Source: Candidatus Rokuibacteriota bacterium
Lineage (GTDB): Bacteria > Methylomirabilota > Methylomirabilia > Rokubacteriales > CSP1-6
Assembly: GCA_016179875.1 (NCBI GenBank)
Contig: JACPCH010000028.1
Location: 1-34,253, forward strand
Direction: 5' to 3'
Length of the DNA: 34,253 nt
The position numbers and the translations under genes were made by a program. Position 1 is the stretch's first letter. Every line of letters begins with the position of its first letter. Positions 25,890 to 33,372 of this stretch are shown here, in pieces. The notes beneath the pieces are model-generated. The model was given only the letters and a program-made list of their open reading frames with translations, did not search any database and was not told the origin of the DNA.

Positions 25890-26246
25890 ATGCAAGATAT
25901 CGACGATCAGGCCTACGTACTCCACGCGAGCGTCTGCCAGACGCTCGCGAATCCCACCCGGCTGAAGATCCTCAACGCCCTGCGCGACCAGGAGATCCCG
26001 GTGGCCGAGCTGGCGCGGCGGACGGGGACGAGCATGCCGAATCTCTCCCAGCATCTGGCCATCCTCCGCCAGCGGCGCGTGGTCCTGACGCGCCGCCAGG
26101 GCGTGACGATCCACTACCGCATCGCGAACCCGAAGATCCTGCAGGCCTTCGACATCATGCGCGAGGTGCTGTTCGAGCAGCTCTCCGAGGGGCGTCGGCT
26201 CGTCGCCGCGGTCAACCGCGCGCGGCGCGGCGGCGCCAGGAGATGA
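25890..26246 (+). CDS. ArsR-family winged-helix transcriptional regulator
   Basis: A 118-residue ArsR/SmtB-type repressor. The winged helix is clear: LANPTRLKILNALRDQEIPVAELARRTGTSMPNLSQHLAILRQRRVVLTRRQGVTIHYRI (about 19-78), with recognition helix SMPNLSQHLAIL. The only cysteine is C16 (HASVCQTLA). The metal-binding ELCVCDL motif of arsenic sensors and the paired Cys of sulfide sensors such as BigR/SqrR are absent, so sensing would need one Cys per subunit or a non-metal ligand. Good GGGAGAA ribosome site. It is the first gene of the operon, 4 bases ahead of the selenoprotein-like DsrE gene, so it most likely regulates the DsrE/RND genes behind it. Confidence 0.92.
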   Translation: MQDIDDQAYVLHASVCQTLANPTRLKILNALRDQEIPVAELARRTGTSMPNLSQHLAILRQRRVVLTRRQGVTIHYRIANPKILQAFDIMREVLFEQLSEGRRLVAAVNRARRGGARR

Positions 26247-26250
26247 GGCG

Positions 26251-26607
26251 ATGGAGAAGCGGCTGACCTTCGTCCTGACCGCGAGCCCGTACGCGGGGGA
26301 AACCGCGGGGACCGTCCTCAAGCTGGCCACGGCGGCTCTGGACGTCGGTCACCGGCCGGCGATCTTCGCCACCGCCGACGGCGCCTACGGATTCGTCAAG
26401 GGGCAGGCGCCGGCGGGCGTCTTCGACGTCGGCGCGGCGGCCCAGGCCTTCCTGGCGCGCGGCGGCGAGGTCCACCTCTGAGGCTCGTGCCTGCGATTCC
26501 GGGGAATCGCCGATGACGATCTTCTGAGCGGCGCGAGCGTCGGGAGCCTCTCGCGACTCATGGCGCTGCTCGAGGAGAGCCAGGTCGTGCTCACCTTCGG
26601 GCGATAG
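26251..26607 (+). CDS. DsrE-family protein with in-frame TGA, probable selenoprotein
   Basis: DsrE/TusD-type proteins are small sulfur (persulfide) carriers. The frame starts MEKRLTFVLTASPYAG at 26251, shows the family core TVLKLATAALDVGHRPAIFAT, and meets TGA at 26479-26481 right after GGEVHL. The same frame then continues without a break through GSCLRFRGIADDDLLSG and LMALLEESQVVLTFGR to TAG at 26605-26607. Total length is 118, normal for the family. Family members have C-G-x-C at this point, so TGA replaces the first Cys (residue 77), giving U-G-S-C. A hairpin 11 bases downstream fits a bacterial SECIS. Sec-containing DsrE-like proteins have been reported, to my memory. The next gene begins with its own AGGAG overlapping this TAG. 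A nonsense mutation is the alternative; I judge Sec much likelier. Confidence 0.8.
26493..26510 (+). promoter_or_regulatory. Putative bacterial SECIS hairpin
   Basis: Bases 26493-26499 (gcgattc) pair perfectly with 26504-26510 (gaatcgc) around the loop cggg (26500-26503). The loop begins 18 bases after the in-frame TGA, and its second base is G. Both facts meet the published bSECIS rules as I remember them (16-37 bases to the loop, G among the first two loop bases). Confidence 0.7.
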
Positions 26608-26616
26608 GAGCGCGTC

Positions 26617-26982
26617 ATGCCGCGCCTGCTCTGCCTCGTCGTCGAACAGGGACCCTACGGGAGCCTCAACCCGGCCGAGGCGATTCGCCACGCGGGCGGG
26701 GCGCTCGGCAAAGGCTGGGAGGTGGTGCTCGCCTTCCTGGGGAACAGCGTGTACACGGCGCTGCCCAGGCAGTCGCCGCCGACCGGCGAATGGCTCTCCC
26801 TCTCCGAAGCCCTGACGAAGCTCATCGCCGACGGGAAGGAACGGGTGCAGGTGCTCGCGGAGGCCGGCTCCCTCGATGCGTGTCGGATCTCGGCGAAGGA
26901 CATGGTTTCTGGAGTGCAGCGGGCCTCGGCCGGAGACATCGCGCGGGTGATCGCCGAATGCGATCGCGCGCTGCTCTTCTGA
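26617..26982 (+). CDS. DsrE/DsrF (TusC-like) family protein
   Basis: A 121-residue cytosolic protein of the DsrE/F superfold. It starts MPRLLCLVVEQGPYGSLNPAEAIRHAGGALGKGWEVVLAFLGNSVY, with the usual first strand, helix and second strand, followed by AEAGSLDACRISAKDM (C89 in the region that precedes the active-site loop) and the final strand DRALLF. It lies 9 bases after the DsrE selenoprotein stop with a good AGGAG, and probably forms the second subunit of a DsrEFH/TusBCD-like complex. C89 could be a persulfide carrier, but it is not in a clear C-x-x-C motif. Confidence 0.85.
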   Translation: MPRLLCLVVEQGPYGSLNPAEAIRHAGGALGKGWEVVLAFLGNSVYTALPRQSPPTGEWLSLSEALTKLIADGKERVQVLAEAGSLDACRISAKDMVSGVQRASAGDIARVIAECDRALLF

Positions 26983-27320
26983 GCAGATCCCTGGCCTCGA
27001 TTCTCCTCACCCTGATCAGCGCCCCCGAAACAGCCGGGGGCCGGCAGGCCCTGGCGCTGGCGGAGTCCCTTGCCGCCGAGGGCCATCGCCTCACGGTGTG
27101 CTGCCTCCAGGACGCCATCATCCTCGGCAGCAACCGCGCCCCGGGTGATGCGCGAGCCGTGCTCGACCGGCTCCTCGATCGCGGAGCCCGCTGCCTGGTC
27201 TTGCTCGACGATCTCGTCCTCCGCGGCCTCGTGGCGGGCGAGCGCGCAGTGACGGTCGATCGCGCCGGGATCGTCGCCGCGCTGACCGCCGACCACGACC
27301 GGGTCATCGGAGCCTTCTGA
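26958..27320 (+). CDS. Third DsrE-family protein
   Basis: From ATG 26958 the product is 120 residues, with a core (LASILLTLISAPETAGGRQALALAESLAAEGHRLTVCCLQDA) typical of the DsrE family, then DRLLDRGARCLVLLDDLVLRG (C79) and a C-terminal DHDRVIGAF. C48-C49 are adjacent in a strand. The start overlaps the previous gene by 25 bases; no ATG or GTG lies closer to the first strand, so a rarer start near 26992 is possible. It completes three consecutive DsrE-type genes, matching the three-subunit DsrEFH/TusBCD architecture, although this one is not a clear DsrH/TusB. It ends 1 base before the RND gene. Confidence 0.78.
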   Translation: MRSRAALLSRSLASILLTLISAPETAGGRQALALAESLAAEGHRLTVCCLQDAIILGSNRAPGDARAVLDRLLDRGARCLVLLDDLVLRGLVAGERAVTVDRAGIVAALTADHDRVIGAF

Positions 27321-27321
27321 C

Positions 27322-29559
27322 ATGCGGGCGGCTGCGGCGTGGGCTGCCGTCCGCCGGAGCACGGTCGAGTGGTCGGCGGATCACCCCTGGATCGTGATCG
27401 CCCTGACGCTCCTCCTGACGCTCGCCTTCGGCAGCCAGCTGCCCCGGATCAAGACCGACACCGACCCGAAGAACATGCTCCCGGTCACGTCCCCCGTCCG
27501 CCAGTACAACGACCAGGTCGAGGGCTGGTTCGGCCTGCACCCGGACGTCCTGGTGGTCGGCGTCTGGAGCCCCGACGGGATCTTCACGTCCGAGACGCTG
27601 GCGCGCGTCAACCGGCTCGCCGAGGCGGTGCTGCGCCTCCCCGGGGTGATCGCCCGGGACGTGGTGGCGCTGCCGACGGTCAACGACGTCACGGTCGTCG
27701 GGGGCACGCTCCAGGCGCGCCCGATCCTCGACGGCGTCCCGCGGGATGCCGGGGAGGCGGAGCGGCTCCGGCGCCAGGTCCTCGGCAACGCGCTCCTCGT
27801 CAACCGCCTGGTGTCGTCCGACGGGACCACCACCGCGCTGTACGTCCCCATCGAGAAGAGCGCGAACGGCAAGCTCATCGCCGCGGAGATCCGCCGGATC
27901 GCGGAGAAGGAGGCGGGACCCGAGCGCTACTACATCGCCGGCGACCCGGTGGCGCGCGACACGTTCGGCGCGGAGATGTTCCGCCAGATGGCGCTCTTCT
28001 CGCCGCTCGCCGGGATGCTGATGTGCGGGGTGCTCTTCCTGATGTTCCGGAGCTGGTGGCTGGTGGCGGCCAACATGCTGGTGGCGATGCTCGCCATCGT
28101 GTGGGCGATGGGGCTCTTCATCGGGCTGGGCATCCCCGTCCACATCATGGCCTCGATGAGCCCCGTCTTCCTCATGGCCATCTCCACCGACACGGTGCAC
28201 ATCTTCAACGAGTTCACGTTCCGGCGGCGCGAGGTGGGCGACCGGCGCCAGGCGATCCTCCAGACGATGGACGCGGTGGGCACCCCGGTCCTCTTCTCGG
28301 ATCTGACGACGATCGCCGGCTTCGCCTCGCTGGCGATCGGGCCGATCATCCCCGTGCGCGTCTTCGGCCTGCTGGTGGCCTTCGGCACCCTCGTGGTCCT
28401 CCTCATGAGCTTCACCCTGGTGCCCGCGCTCCTCGCGCTCACGCGCCAGGGGCGCTCGGCCGCCGCGCCACGGGAGCTGGAGCCGGCCTCGCGCTGGCTC
28501 GGGCGTGTCGGCGGGATCTGCGTCGGGTGGAAGACGACGGTGGCGCTGGTCGGCGTGGCCCTGGTCGCGGTGTCGGCCGTCGGCATCGCGAAGATCCGGA
28601 TCAACAACAACCTCATCGCCTGGTTCAAGCCGGGGAGCGAGATCCGCGTGGCCGACGCCCACCTGGGCCGGGCGCTCGGCGGCACGGCGACCCTCTACCT
28701 GGTGGCCGACGGCCGTCGGCCGGACACCGTGACGGAGCCGGCGTTCCTGCGCGCCCTCGAAGGGCTCCAGCGACGGATCGAGAAGGAGCCGGTCGTCGGC
28801 AAGACCGTCTCCGTGGCCGACGTGGTGAAGCGTGTCCATCGGGTGCTCAACGACGACGACCCCACGCGCGAGATCATTCCCGACTCGCGGGAGGCCGTCG
28901 GGCAGGCGCTGCTGCTCTTCAGCATGGGCGCCCGTCCGCGGGACCTCGCCAACCTCGTCGACAATCCCTATCAGAAGGCCAACGTCATGGTCCAGCTCAG
29001 GAGCTGGGACGCCGTGGACACGGAGGCGCTCCTGGCGGTGGTCCGGCGCCACCTGGCCGAGCGCCCGATTCCCGGGGCCGTACTGAAGCCGGCGGGGATC
29101 GCCTACTTCAACATGGTGTGGAACGACGAGGTCCTCATCGGGATGCTGGAGGGCTTCATCGCCTCCTGCGTCCTCGTCCTGTTCCTCCTGATCCTGTTCT
29201 TCCTGCCCTGGCTGGATCGCAGCCCCGACATGCCGATCTCGGTCCTGTCCACGCTGTCCCTGGGCATGGCCATCGACTTCGCCATCCATTTCGTGAGCCG
29301 GTTCCAGCAGCGTTATCGGGAGACGCGCGACCTCGAGGACGCGCTGATCTGGACCGCCGCGAGGCCGGGTCTCGGCATCGTGCGGAATGCCGTGCTCTTC
29401 GCCTCCGGGTTCGCCGTGATGCTCGCCGCCGCGCTCACGCCCTATATCACCGTGGGCGCGTTCATGATCGCCATCATGCTGCTCTCGGCGCTGGCCACGG
29501 TCGTCTACCTCCCCGCGGTCATCGCGCTCTTTCCCGGGCGGCTGACCCGGGGGCTGTAG
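27322..29559 (+). CDS. RND superfamily transporter (MMPL/HpnN type)
   Basis: A 745-residue inner-membrane protein with two RND repeats. TM1 about 23-40, a periplasmic domain about 41-225, a TM cluster about 226-372, TM7 about 405-423, a second periplasmic domain, and a last TM cluster about 615-740. PVFLMAISTDTVHIFNEFTFRRRE (D290) and LGMAIDFAIHFVSRFQQRY contain the Asp residues expected for proton relay. MMPL/HpnN-type pumps move lipids, hopanoids or hydrophobic compounds towards the outer envelope. It starts 1 base after the DsrE-type gene and is followed by a LolA-like and a barrel protein, which makes a complete inner-membrane, periplasm, outer-membrane chain. Cargo unknown. Confidence 0.93.
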   Translation: MRAAAAWAAVRRSTVEWSADHPWIVIALTLLLTLAFGSQLPRIKTDTDPKNMLPVTSPVRQYNDQVEGWFGLHPDVLVVGVWSPDGIFTSETLARVNRLAEAVLRLPGVIARDVVALPTVNDVTVVGGTLQARPILDGVPRDAGEAERLRRQVLGNALLVNRLVSSDGTTTALYVPIEKSANGKLIAAEIRRIAEKEAGPERYYIAGDPVARDTFGAEMFRQMALFSPLAGMLMCGVLFLMFRSWWLVAANMLVAMLAIVWAMGLFIGLGIPVHIMASMSPVFLMAISTDTVHIFNEFTFRRREVGDRRQAILQTMDAVGTPVLFSDLTTIAGFASLAIGPIIPVRVFGLLVAFGTLVVLLMSFTLVPALLALTRQGRSAAAPRELEPASRWLGRVGGICVGWKTTVALVGVALVAVSAVGIAKIRINNNLIAWFKPGSEIRVADAHLGRALGGTATLYLVADGRRPDTVTEPAFLRALEGLQRRIEKEPVVGKTVSVADVVKRVHRVLNDDDPTREIIPDSREAVGQALLLFSMGARPRDLANLVDNPYQKANVMVQLRSWDAVDTEALLAVVRRHLAERPIPGAVLKPAGIAYFNMVWNDEVLIGMLEGFIASCVLVLFLLILFFLPWLDRSPDMPISVLSTLSLGMAIDFAIHFVSRFQQRYRETRDLEDALIWTAARPGLGIVRNAVLFASGFAVMLAAALTPYITVGAFMIAIMLLSALATVVYLPAVIALFPGRLTRGL

Positions 29560-29570
29560 GAGAGGTGTCG

Positions 29571-30377
29571 ATGAAACGGATGCTGTGCGGCTGGATCGTG
29601 GGTCTGACGATGGTCGCGGGAGCCGCCACGGCGCCCGCCCAGGCGCCCGGGGGCGAGGAGATCATGCGGCGGTCCCATCTCGCCATGTATTACCCGGGTG
29701 AGGACATGCGGGCGCGGATCACGATGCGCCTGGTGTCCAGGGACGGCGGGGAGCGGGTCCGGGAGATGACGATGACCCGGCGCACCGTGAAGGCTGGCGG
29801 CGAGCAGCGGTACTTCATCTTCTTCCATCGTCCCCCCGACGTCCGCGATCTGGCCTTCCTCGTCTGGAAGTATCCCGGACGCGACGACGATCGCTGGCTC
29901 TACGTCCCGGCGCTCAAGCTGGTCCGCCGGATCGCGGCGAGCGACAAGCACACGAGCTTCGTCGGGTCCGACTTCAGCTACGAGGACGTCTCGGGGCGGG
30001 AGCCCGAGGACGACGCCCACAAGCTCCTGCGGGACGACACGGTGGTGGGGCGCGACGCGTGGGTCGTCGAGAGCGTCCCGAGGGAGTCGGGGAGCGCCGA
30101 CTTCAGCCGCAAGCTCTCGTGGATCGACAAGGCCACGGGGCTGCCGTTGAAGGAGGAGTACTACGATCGCCGCGGCGATCAGGTCCGCGTCTTCACGGCG
30201 GAGGAGCTGAAGGAGGTCCAGGGTTTCTGGACCGTCACCCGGCGCGTGATGAAGAACGTCCAGAGCGGTCATCGGAGCGAGGCCGTCCTGGCCGACGTCC
30301 GCTACAACCAGAAGCTGTCGCCCGACCTCTTCAGCGAGCGCGCGCTGCGGGCACCGCCGGTGGAGCTCACCCGGTGA
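29571..30377 (+). CDS. Outer-membrane lipoprotein-sorting (LolA-like) periplasmic protein
   Basis: A 268-residue exported protein with a signal peptide (MKRMLCGWIVGLTMVAGAA, cleavage near APAQA). It is of the LolA-like group that travels with RND/MMPL transporters. Landmarks: MRARITMRLVSRDGGERVREMTMTRR, RYFIFFHRPPDVRDLAFLVWKYPGRDDDRWLYVPALKLVRRIAASDKHTSFVGSDFSYEDV (about 84-143) and SWIDKATGLPLKEEYYDRRG. The S-F-x-G-S-D-F-x-Y-E-D motif is characteristic. Good AGGAGAGG ribosome site. The gene overlaps the downstream barrel gene by GTGA. It probably shuttles hydrophobic cargo from the RND pump across the periplasm. Confidence 0.92.
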   Translation: MKRMLCGWIVGLTMVAGAATAPAQAPGGEEIMRRSHLAMYYPGEDMRARITMRLVSRDGGERVREMTMTRRTVKAGGEQRYFIFFHRPPDVRDLAFLVWKYPGRDDDRWLYVPALKLVRRIAASDKHTSFVGSDFSYEDVSGREPEDDAHKLLRDDTVVGRDAWVVESVPRESGSADFSRKLSWIDKATGLPLKEEYYDRRGDQVRVFTAEELKEVQGFWTVTRRVMKNVQSGHRSEAVLADVRYNQKLSPDLFSERALRAPPVELTR

Positions 30378-31627
30378 AGCGCGGCCTCTTCGTCCTCGTG
30401 TCGTTCTTCGCCGTCGCGCGGGTATCGGCGGCAGCGGAGCTGCCCATTCACGGCTTCCTGCAGGCCGCGTCGGCCTACCGGCTCACCCGGCCCGCCGCTT
30501 GTCCTCGCCCCCAGCGGCTCGCCTGCGCCGAGGACTTCGTCCTCGGCGAGGGCCGGGCGCGACTCGAGCTCTCCCCACGCGGGGACCGGTGGTCGCTCAT
30601 GACGAAGGGCGAGCTGACCTGGGATGCCGTCGGGGGCGAGGTGGACGGGGAGCTCCGGGAGGGCTATCTCGACCTCAAGTTCCCCGCGCTCGACGTGCGC
30701 GCCGGGCGCCAGGTGATCACGTGGGGCGTCGGCGACCTGGTCTTCATCACGGACGTGTTTCCCAGGGACTGGGTGGCGTTCATCTCCGGCCTCCCGCTCG
30801 AGTACCTCAAGAAGGGCTCGGACGCCGTCAGCGCCACCGGCCACTGGGCCGGCACGTCGCTCCAGGTCGTCCTGATTCCTCGCTTCGAGGCCGATACGCT
30901 TCCGGCGGCCGGCGGGCGGCTCGCGTTTCACGATCCGATGGCCGCGATCGAGCGACGACGCACCGACGACCCGTCGCCCGCGCTCGAGCGGACGGAGGCG
31001 GGCCTCAGGCTCTTCGGGAACATCGGCGGATGGGACGCCTCGCTCTACGCCTATCGGGGATTCTTCCACTCGCCGGCGGGAGAGCCGGAGCCCGGCCCGC
31101 GGCTCCGGCTGTTCTTCCCGCCGCTCAGCGTCTACGGGGCCAGCGTCCAGGGCGCCGCGCTGGGCGGCGTGGTCAGCGTCGAAGCGGGCTACTACGACTC
31201 GCGATCGGATCGGTCTGGAGGAAACCCGGCCGTCGAGAACTCTTCCGGTCGGCTGCTCGCCGGCTATCAGCGCGAGCTCGTGCCCGACCTCACGGCGTCC
31301 GGGCAGTACTCCGTGCAGGTGATGCAGGACCACGACGCGTACATGAGCGCGCGGGGCCCCGGGATGGCGAAGCGCGCGGAGGCCCGTCACGTGCTCACGC
31401 TCAGGCTGACGCAACTGCTGCTGCATCAGACGCTCAGGCTCGGCCTCTTCGCGCTGGCCAGCCCCAACGAGGGCGACTGGTATGCGGGGCCCGAGGCGCG
31501 ATACCAGATCACCGACGCGTTCTCAGCGACGCTCGGCGTGAACGCGTTCGGCGGTCCCCGCCGCACCGAGTACGGCCAGTTCGAGGGCAACTCGAACGTC
31601 TACGCCGTCGCCCGCTATGCGTTCTGA
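30374..31627 (+). CDS. Outer-membrane beta-barrel protein of the RND/LolA operon
   Basis: A 417-residue exported protein. After the signal (VKRGLFVLVSFFAVARVSAAAEL) come alternating amphipathic strands, GFLQAASAYRL, RLELSPRGDRWSLMTKGELTWD, LDVRAGRQVITWGVGDLVFITDVFPRDW and many more. The chain ends in aromatic F (YAVARYAF), the usual outer-membrane insertion signal. It resembles the DUF1302-like/porin-type proteins found beside MMPL and LolA-like genes. Starts with GTG overlapping the previous stop by 4 bases. It is the likely outer-membrane exit of the transport chain (inference). The stop is immediately followed by the truncated methyltransferase frame. Confidence 0.88.
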   Translation: MKRGLFVLVSFFAVARVSAAAELPIHGFLQAASAYRLTRPAACPRPQRLACAEDFVLGEGRARLELSPRGDRWSLMTKGELTWDAVGGEVDGELREGYLDLKFPALDVRAGRQVITWGVGDLVFITDVFPRDWVAFISGLPLEYLKKGSDAVSATGHWAGTSLQVVLIPRFEADTLPAAGGRLAFHDPMAAIERRRTDDPSPALERTEAGLRLFGNIGGWDASLYAYRGFFHSPAGEPEPGPRLRLFFPPLSVYGASVQGAALGGVVSVEAGYYDSRSDRSGGNPAVENSSGRLLAGYQRELVPDLTASGQYSVQVMQDHDAYMSARGPGMAKRAEARHVLTLRLTQLLLHQTLRLGLFALASPNEGDWYAGPEARYQITDAFSATLGVNAFGGPRRTEYGQFEGNSNVYAVARYAF

Positions 31628-31675: not shown

Positions 31676-32281
31676 GTGCTTGCGCTCGTCGGAGACCGGG
31701 CGGAAGGTGTTGCCCTCGACCTCTCATGCGGGACGGGCAACTACGCTCTGGCGCTCGCCGAACGGAGTTTCCGGGTCGTCGGGGTGGACGTGTCAGAACC
31801 CATGCTCCGCGTCGCCCGAGCGAAAAGCGCGCAGGCGAACCTCGACATCTCTTGGCTTCGGGCCGATGCGAGCGCGCTGCCGTTCCGCTCAGGCGCGTTC
31901 GACCTCACAACGATCGTCCTCGGGCTCGAGTTCACCGCGGAGCCCGGCCGGGTCGTCGGTGAAGCTCATCGCGTCCTCAAGCCCGAAGGCGACCTCGTCG
32001 TGGCGATCCTCAATCGAGGCGGGCTCTGGACCCTCTGGCGACGGCTCAAGCGCCTGGTCGTTCCTTCGGTCTGGCGCCGTGCGACCTTTTTTCGCCCCGA
32101 CGAGCTGCGCGACCTGCTGCGGGCGCGAGGCTTCGCGGCGCAGGGGTGGCGGAGGGCGGTACACTTTCTTCCTCTCTTCGCGCGAGACCGGGTGGGCTGG
32201 CTCGAGTGGTGGGAGGCGATCGGGACTCGATGGATGCCCGCCTCCGCGACCTTCGTGGCCGTGGCGGCGCGGCGTCTCTAG
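31676..32281 (+). CDS. Class I SAM-dependent methyltransferase, N-terminally truncated
   Basis: A 201-residue class I methyltransferase core. The SAM motif ALDLSCGTGNYAL comes near residue 14, followed by VVGVDVSEPMLRVAR (acidic D after strand 2), ADASALPFRSGAFDLTTIVLGLEF and VVGEAHRVLKPEGDLVVA. The C-terminus is complete (RWMPASATFVAVAARRL). Homologues normally have about 30-45 residues before this core (a YDxWF-type helix). Here the frame runs back only through GDRLVDRLEKNAVLALVG to the TGA of the barrel gene in the same frame. The N-terminus therefore seems to have been lost by a deletion up to the barrel stop. GTG 31676 could still initiate. Activity is doubtful. Confidence 0.68.
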   Translation: MLALVGDRAEGVALDLSCGTGNYALALAERSFRVVGVDVSEPMLRVARAKSAQANLDISWLRADASALPFRSGAFDLTTIVLGLEFTAEPGRVVGEAHRVLKPEGDLVVAILNRGGLWTLWRRLKRLVVPSVWRRATFFRPDELRDLLRARGFAAQGWRRAVHFLPLFARDRVGWLEWWEAIGTRWMPASATFVAVAARRL

Positions 32282-32293
32282 GAGGAACGGCCA

Positions 32294-33372
32294 ATGGCCG
32301 CCGGCACCGGATCATCGTCATCGAGCGCAGCCCGCGGCACGTCTTCACGCCGTCGTTCCTCTGGATGATGCTCGGCTGGCGTGAGCCTCAGGCGATCAGC
32401 CGCGACCTGGCCCGGCTGGGCCGCAAGGGAATCGAGGTGGTCCAGGAGGAGATCCGCGAGATCGACCCCGTGCGGCGCCGGGTGAGGACCGAGCGCCAGG
32501 AGATCGCGGCCGACCACCTCGTCGTCTCGCTCGGCGCCGAGGGGTGGCTGGGCGGCCCGCCGGGCCTCGCGGAGGCCGGCCACAACCTCTACGACCTGGG
32601 CGGCACGCTCCGCCTCCGCGACGCGCTGAGCGAATTCCGCGGCGGCCGGGTGGCCGTCCTGATCGCGGGACTGCCCTTCAAGTGCCCGGCCGCGCCCTAC
32701 GAAGCCGCGATGCTGCTCGAGGCCTCGCTCCGCCGGCGCGGGCTGCGCGAGCGATCCCCCGTCGATCTCTACACGCCCGAGACGCTCCCGATGCCCGTCG
32801 CGGGCAAGGCGCTGGGCGAGGCCCTGAAGGGGATGGTGGAGGACAAGGGCGTCGGCTTCCACCCCCAGCACAAGCTCGCCTCGGTCGATCCCGCGCGGCG
32901 GGAGCTGGCGTTCGAGAACGGCGTCAAGGCCGGCTACGACCTCCTCGTGGTCATCCCGCCGCACCGCTGTCCGCCCGTCGTGAAGGAGGCGGGGCTCACG
33001 GGGGAAACCGGATGGGTGCCGGTGGACAGGGCGAGCCTCGCGACCTCCCACGAGCGCGTGTTCGCGATCGGCGACGTGACGGCCATCAAGCTGCCGGTCG
33101 GGCTGATGCTGCCGAAGGCGGGCGTCTTCGCCCACGCGGAGGCCGAGGTGGTCGCCCACAACCTCGCCGCCGAGATCACGGGGCGGGGAGTGCCCAGGCA
33201 CTTCGACGGCTTCGGCTCCTGCTTCGTGGAAATGGGCGACGGCGTCGCCGCCTACGCCAAGGGGAACTTCTATGCCGAGCCGGCGCCGGCGATGACCCTC
33301 CGGTCGCCGAGCCGCGTCTGGCACTGGAGCAAGATCTACGTCGAGAAGTCGTGGCTGCGGCGCTGGTTCTGA
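32294..33372 (+). pseudogene. Sulfide:quinone-reductase-like FAD oxidoreductase, N-terminal FAD motif missing
   Basis: The body (frame of 32293-33372) is an SQR/NDH-2-like flavoprotein: HRIIVIERSPRHVFTPSFLW, LARLGRKGIEVVQEEIREIDP, LVVSLGAEGW, GLPFKCPAAPYEAAML (Cys in the C-P-A-A-P-Y-E motif), FAIGDVTAIKLPVGLMLPKAGVFAHAEAEVVAHNLAAEI and the C-terminal amphipathic YVEKSWLRRWF. Cys also occur in PPHRCPPVV and FGSCFVE. The expected N-terminal GxGxxG FAD-binding strand (about 30 residues) is absent. A good GGAGGA and ATG at 32294 remain, but the ATG is out of frame with the body, so a deletion removed the FAD motif and shifted the frame. Sulfide:quinone reductases oxidise sulfide to sulfane sulfur, which fits the DsrE genes upstream. 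Confidence 0.78.

Follow-up and report, generated by a model that had tools for sequence, protein, structure and literature searches.

The stretch of DNA analysed here (the window, 34,253 nucleotides) comes from an uncultured Rokubacteria-type bacterium. It carries a row of genes in which a DsrE-family frame is crossed by a single in-frame TGA. The gene order, largely conserved in relatives, is ArsR, DsrE(Sec), DsrF-like, DsrH-like, MMPL transporter, LolA-like, barrel, methyltransferase and type III sulfide:quinone reductase (SQR). The features are the following.

25890-26246, + strand: ArsR/SmtB-family repressor, likely the operon regulator (PF01022, 2e-12; NF033788 HTH_metalloreg, 83 bits against a cut-off of 55)
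26251-26607, + strand: predicted DsrE-family selenoprotein gene, 118 residues, Sec77, motif UGSC (PF02635, 4.5e-19; AlphaFold2 model of the read-through protein)
26479-26481, + strand: in-frame TGA, predicted to be read as selenocysteine (Sec); aligned with DsrE-Cys78 and the active-site Cys of TusD and YchN
26493-26510, + strand: bSECIS-type hairpin, 7-bp stem, 4-base loop CGGG (bSECIS criteria from PMC13188914)
26617-26982, + strand: DsrF-like subunit gene (PF02635; best PDB profile match DsrF, 2hy5_B, 3.2e-9)
26958-27320, + strand: DsrH-like subunit gene, start codon uncertain (best PDB profile matches DsrH, 2hy5_C, 1.5e-4, and TusB, 2d1p_C, 1.9e-4)
27322-29559, + strand: MMPL/HAE3-type RND transporter (PF03176, 1.9e-24; TIGR00921, 186 bits, under its cut-off)
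29571-30377, + strand: LolA-like periplasmic protein (PF17131, 1.5e-62)
30374-31627, + strand: putative outer-membrane beta-barrel protein (weak PF14052/PF06980, below gathering; synteny)
31676-32281, + strand: class I methyltransferase (PF08241, 2.1e-24)
32294-33372, + strand: type III SQR-like gene (NF049943, 206 bits, below the cut-off of 525)

The DsrE-family gene and its TGA codon

The gene starts at ATG 26251, with AGGAG upstream, and its frame closes with TAG at 26605-26607; a second AGGAG and the next ATG, at 26617, follow. The first-pass annotation had described one TGA within a DsrE-type frame, followed in the same frame by 41 codons that end just 5′ of the ribosome site of the next gene, and this is borne out: the TGA is codon 77, with 41 sense codons beyond it. 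The PF02635 match reaches 69.2 bits against a gathering score of 22.7 and covers the whole profile (1-116 of 116). As had been foreseen, a mechanical ORF call does end at the TGA, which truncates the product at 76 residues.

A search of 148 genomes, covering the class of the source organism and genomes beyond it, yielded 14 carriers of the gene. Eleven belong to the order (the source and 10 relatives with 70-88% identity) and three lie elsewhere in the same class (43-47% identity); the genes of five carriers were matched in named public Rokubacteria assemblies. Every one of the 14 has exactly one TGA, always at the same codon and always followed by G-[S/T]-C. Eleven distant homologues (28-34% identity) have Cys in the Sec77 column, in agreement with the earlier proposal that the TGA stands for the first Cys of a C-G-x-C motif, giving U-G-S-C. 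In an alignment around residue 77, this column is C or U in 25/25 sequences.

The sequence after the TGA had been called family-like, and it does evolve as protein. Between the window gene and its ten orthologues, the post-TGA differences number 45, 36 and 141 at codon positions 1, 2 and 3 (p ~1e-20, without correction for shared ancestry); before and after the TGA alike, dN is considerably lower than dS. These results bear on whether the TGA is a genuine stop, leaving a pseudogene or a 76-residue product only. TGA ends other genes in the window, the mechanical call stops at this one, and selB and tRNA-Sec were not found in the source bin. Against a stop are the purifying selection past the TGA, the same-codon TGA in 14 genomes, the conserved hairpin discussed below, and the structural model, in which ending at residue 76 would cost the fold its last strands and helix; termination at this codon is thus very improbable. 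The source being a metagenome assembly, a Cys codon might also have become TGA through faulty sequencing or assembly. Since 13 other genomes share the TGA, and several of these are from assemblies named independently, this explanation keeps only a vanishingly small probability. The comparative evidence, namely the TGA shared by 14 genomes and the selection beyond it, is the reason for rejecting both pseudogene and sequencing error.

The hairpin and the selenocysteine machinery

The hairpin consists of GCGATTC (26493-26499), the loop CGGG (26500-26503) and GAATCGC (26504-26510), which form seven perfect Watson-Crick pairs. It had been reported to lie 11 nt past the TGA, at bSECIS distance, and measurement confirms this, with 18 nt from TGA to loop. 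The published bSECIS rules allow 4-16 bp for the upper stem, 3-9 nt for the loop, which must have a G among its first two bases, and 16-37 nt between TGA and loop, and they require a minimum free energy of -7.5 or lower (PMC13188914). The hairpin of the window agrees with them at 7 bp, CGGG, 18 nt and -14.0 kcal/mol over 45 nt. Among all TGA trinucleotides in the window, only 2.5% are followed by a Watson-Crick stem that has at least 7 bp and fits bSECIS geometry. When the Sec-DsrE gene is recoded synonymously, about 0.1% of the recodings yield a comparable stem; this probability is larger for the genes of some relatives, reaching 0.39. By itself, the hairpin region has an unremarkable folding energy (p 0.65), and this energy was dropped as evidence. 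The hairpin therefore counts as support, and the main weight rests on the comparative data. A scan of the window against Rfam gave no match at gathering scores.

Within the order, the stem is identical in 10 of 11 sequences and is reduced to five contiguous pairs in the remaining one. It is built on rare codons that the clade has retained, namely CGA at +5 (2% usage) in 10/11 and GGA at +8 (7% usage) in 11/11. Unlike the fixed GGA of the stem, Gly columns elsewhere in the gene are variable. The three distant members of the class have different hairpins in another register, with 7-8 pairs when G-U is allowed and G-first loops at 19-22 nt, and these also fit bSECIS geometry. Covariation is unusable as evidence, since the hairpin is almost invariant in Rokubacteriales and the three distant members use another register.

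In the source genome, a bin that is 77% complete, the search for sel genes succeeded in part. A selD gene is present (L086, G000:C259:6663-7604) and has its own in-frame TGA (ACAGUASK) and an 8-bp hairpin; selA, selB and tRNA-Sec were not found in this bin, which has a contig break beside the locus. Some tRNA-Sec-like matches in the source genome proved to be ordinary tRNAs and were rejected. In the congener G003, tRNA-Sec(tca), selA and selB stand in a row. Source contig C58 is 83% identical to this sel region and starts, at L089:14034, 3 kb beyond the congener's selB, so the selA/selB/tRNA-Sec locus of the source genome very probably falls in an assembly gap. Among the 14 carriers, selB was found above cut-off in 12 and tRNA-Sec in 11; the two carriers lacking selB are bins 77 and 81% complete.

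The source genome contains a second Sec-type DsrE frame (L090:2454-2800, G000:C224). Its TGA falls within a UGKC motif, and its hairpin, GTGGCCC-GTG-GGGTCAC, is bSECIS-like.

The claim of the first-pass annotation that this is a true selenoprotein is therefore upheld by the same-codon TGA in 14/14 carriers, Cys in distant homologues, the conserved hairpin of bSECIS type, a selD that itself contains a TGA, and sel genes in relatives. From these sequence comparisons, TGA 26479 is almost certainly decoded as selenocysteine, which would make 26251-26607 a selenoprotein gene. Insertion of Sec most probably depends on the hairpin at 26493-26510 together with SelA, SelB, tRNA-Sec and SelD.

The active site and the DsrEFH-type partners

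The AlphaFold2 model of the read-through protein has a pLDDT of 94.7, and the solved folds closest to it are YchN, DsrF, DsrE and TusD, the last three from the complexes DsrEFH and TusBCD. Profile alignment sets Sec77 on DsrE-Cys78, the same place as the active Cys of TusD and YchN. In Allochromatium vinosum DsrEFH, DsrE-Cys78 binds sulfur and passes it on (PMC3397948). Alignment and model together thus place the predicted Sec77 at the position of the sulfur-carrying Cys of DsrE (Cys78), TusD and YchN.

The two genes that follow resemble the other subunits of such complexes. For the DsrF-like family, the TusC/DsrF model TIGR03010 stays below cut-off in 12/13 members (best 2.2e-9), and for the DsrH-like family PF04077 (DsrH) was found in 11/11 members (best 6.3e-10). 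The trio is contiguous in relatives wherever contigs run on. By remote sequence similarity, then, the three adjacent genes are a DsrEFH-type set. The curated cut-offs for TusB, TusC and TusD (TIGR03010-03012) are not reached; Sec-DsrE scores 25.8 bits against 94.15 for TusC, and the others are weaker. The DsrH-like subunit has no Cys at the position aligned with DsrH-Cys20. Given Sec77 at the place of the carrier Cys, followed by genes for DsrF-like and DsrH-like subunits, the three products probably assemble into a hexamer of the DsrEFH/TusBCD type.

Several known systems invite comparison. The A. vinosum DsrEFH, type I (PDB 2hy5; PMC3397948), is likewise encoded by three adjacent E-, F- and H-like genes, and its Cys78 is the residue aligned with Sec77; the present set differs in having Sec for Cys, an extra Cys at +3 (UGSC vs CVAA), no DsrH-Cys20 and no linkage to dsrABC. 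The type II DsrEFH described in 2026 from cable bacteria and sulfate reducers is also a divergent triad with a single active Cys in DsrE and an H-like subunit that lacks Cys20 (PMC13293266; PMC13047784). Compared by description only, type II differs in being linked to tusA and yeeE and in using Cys67, and selenium is not mentioned in either account. With E. coli TusBCD (PDB 2d1p), the set shares the three-subunit sulfurtransferase fold, the active Cys of TusD being aligned with Sec77; the differences are the Sec itself and the absence of a DsrC/TusE partner from most carriers.

YchN of E. coli is a homohexamer of unknown function. It is the closest solved relative (PDB 1jx7) both by sequence profile (5.9e-27) and by fold (TM 0.88), and its CKTC motif lies at the same place, with Cys there and Sec here. 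This kinship supports another reading, in which the Sec-Cys pair of the selenoprotein is a thiol/selenol redox centre for disulfide, polysulfide or peroxide reduction and not a sulfur carrier. The UxxC motif is of the redox type seen in thioredoxin-like selenoproteins, and published surveys put DsrE-like UxxC proteins among the thiol-based oxidoreductases. The DsrF-like and DsrH-like neighbours and the SQR of the operon point instead to the handling of sulfane sulfur, and we consider a redox centre rather unlikely.

The operon and a possible sulfur relay

An ArsR/DsrE/RND operon had been proposed for this locus. The ArsR and RND-type neighbours are indeed there, and the ArsR gene adjoins Sec-DsrE in 9/13 of the relatives' contigs examined; the setting is wider than had been stated, with DsrF-like, DsrH-like and type III SQR genes, and no description of it was found in the literature searched.

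The last gene is a relative of the type III SQR selenoprotein subtype. The window copy falls outside the family model SQR_III_seleno (NF049943), with 206 bits against 525 and Cys instead of Sec. It has a Cys codon, TGC at 33220, where the orthologues of three relatives (G009, G013 and G073; L094, L092 and L103) have an in-frame TGA near the C-terminus, followed by 6-bp hairpins. The motif in these Rokubacteria is DGYU, vs HxxU listed for the family. Sec and Cys are thus exchanged within one operon, the SQR being of the Sec type in those three genomes and of the Cys type in the window. The window copy (32281-32320, 32294-33372) lacks about 21-23 residues at the N-terminus, which in relatives hold the GxGxxG motif for FAD binding, and the ATG at 32294, its likely start, lies in a different frame from the remainder. 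Judged from its sequence, either the gene is damaged or the assembly is at fault here; relatives have intact SQR copies.

The most likely reading is a sulfur relay of the DsrEFH type that would be supplied by SQR and have a selenol at its active site; we put its chances at about even. In such a relay, the type III SQR would convert sulfide to sulfane sulfur, which Sec77 would accept as a selenenyl-sulfide, to be resolved by Cys80 or some other acceptor. The products of the RND, LolA-like and barrel genes may carry a product across the envelope, and ArsR would be the controller of the operon. DsrC is excluded as the acceptor in most carriers, where dsrC and dsrA are absent: a search of the 14 carriers did not find them in 10, the source bin included, and found them in 4. 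A canonical relay from DsrEFH through DsrC to DsrAB is accordingly weakened as an explanation of the operon.

In G012, G017, G030, G032 and G043, dsrA-like and dsrC genes lie on other contigs, apart from the Sec-DsrE operon.

An ArsR/SmtB regulator beside an RND-type transporter also suggests a metalloid or heavy-metal resistance operon, in which ArsR would sense the metal(loid), the Sec/Cys pair bind it and the RND protein export it; many Sec proteins are tied to Hg or As. The transporter matches the lipid/hydrophobe MMPL/HAE3 type, with a LolA-like partner, rather than a metal exporter, and sulfur chemistry is what the DsrEFH-like triad and the SQR point to, so that metal resistance seems improbable. 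The explanation we favour, and hold to be reasonably likely as a whole, combines a Sec-decoded gene, a DsrEFH/TusBCD-type complex, an SQR-fed relay, envelope transport and ArsR control. More tentatively, and at somewhat less than even chances, the set may represent a distinct further DsrEFH-like type with a Sec carrier, coupled to SQR (Sec-containing in some) and RND export and independent of DsrC/DsrAB.

It had been stated in the first pass that Sec-containing DsrE-like proteins are known, and they are in fact a recognised UxxC family, known since 2004. This PF02635 family has members described in Desulfovibrio vulgaris and in marine metagenomes (PMC1794560; PMC1088965; PMC2398784; PMC13188914), and one Methylomirabilota genome is reported to hold 63 predicted selenoprotein genes. 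The present gene resembles them in its DsrE family, the Sec placed first in UxxC and the downstream bSECIS; the passages compared mention no DsrF/DsrH triad, SQR neighbour or Rokubacteria. A literature search on the operon, on DsrEFH with selenocysteine and on Rokubacteria selenoproteins, with most subscription journals outside its reach, found no description. The Sec-bearing DsrEFH-type triad and SQR operon therefore appear to be an undescribed setting of a known Sec DsrE family.

The DsrEFH genes serve as markers for sulfur oxidation, and dsrEFH has been noted in Rokubacteria unlikely to be sulfur oxidisers (PMC7596348). Surveys needing three intact genes would miss the Sec forms, because the standard gene call ends DsrE at residue 76. 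For sulfur relays, a selenol in the carrier's place would, if true, mean a different chemistry, and in Rokubacteria, which are uncultured, the operon provides a pathway open to testing.
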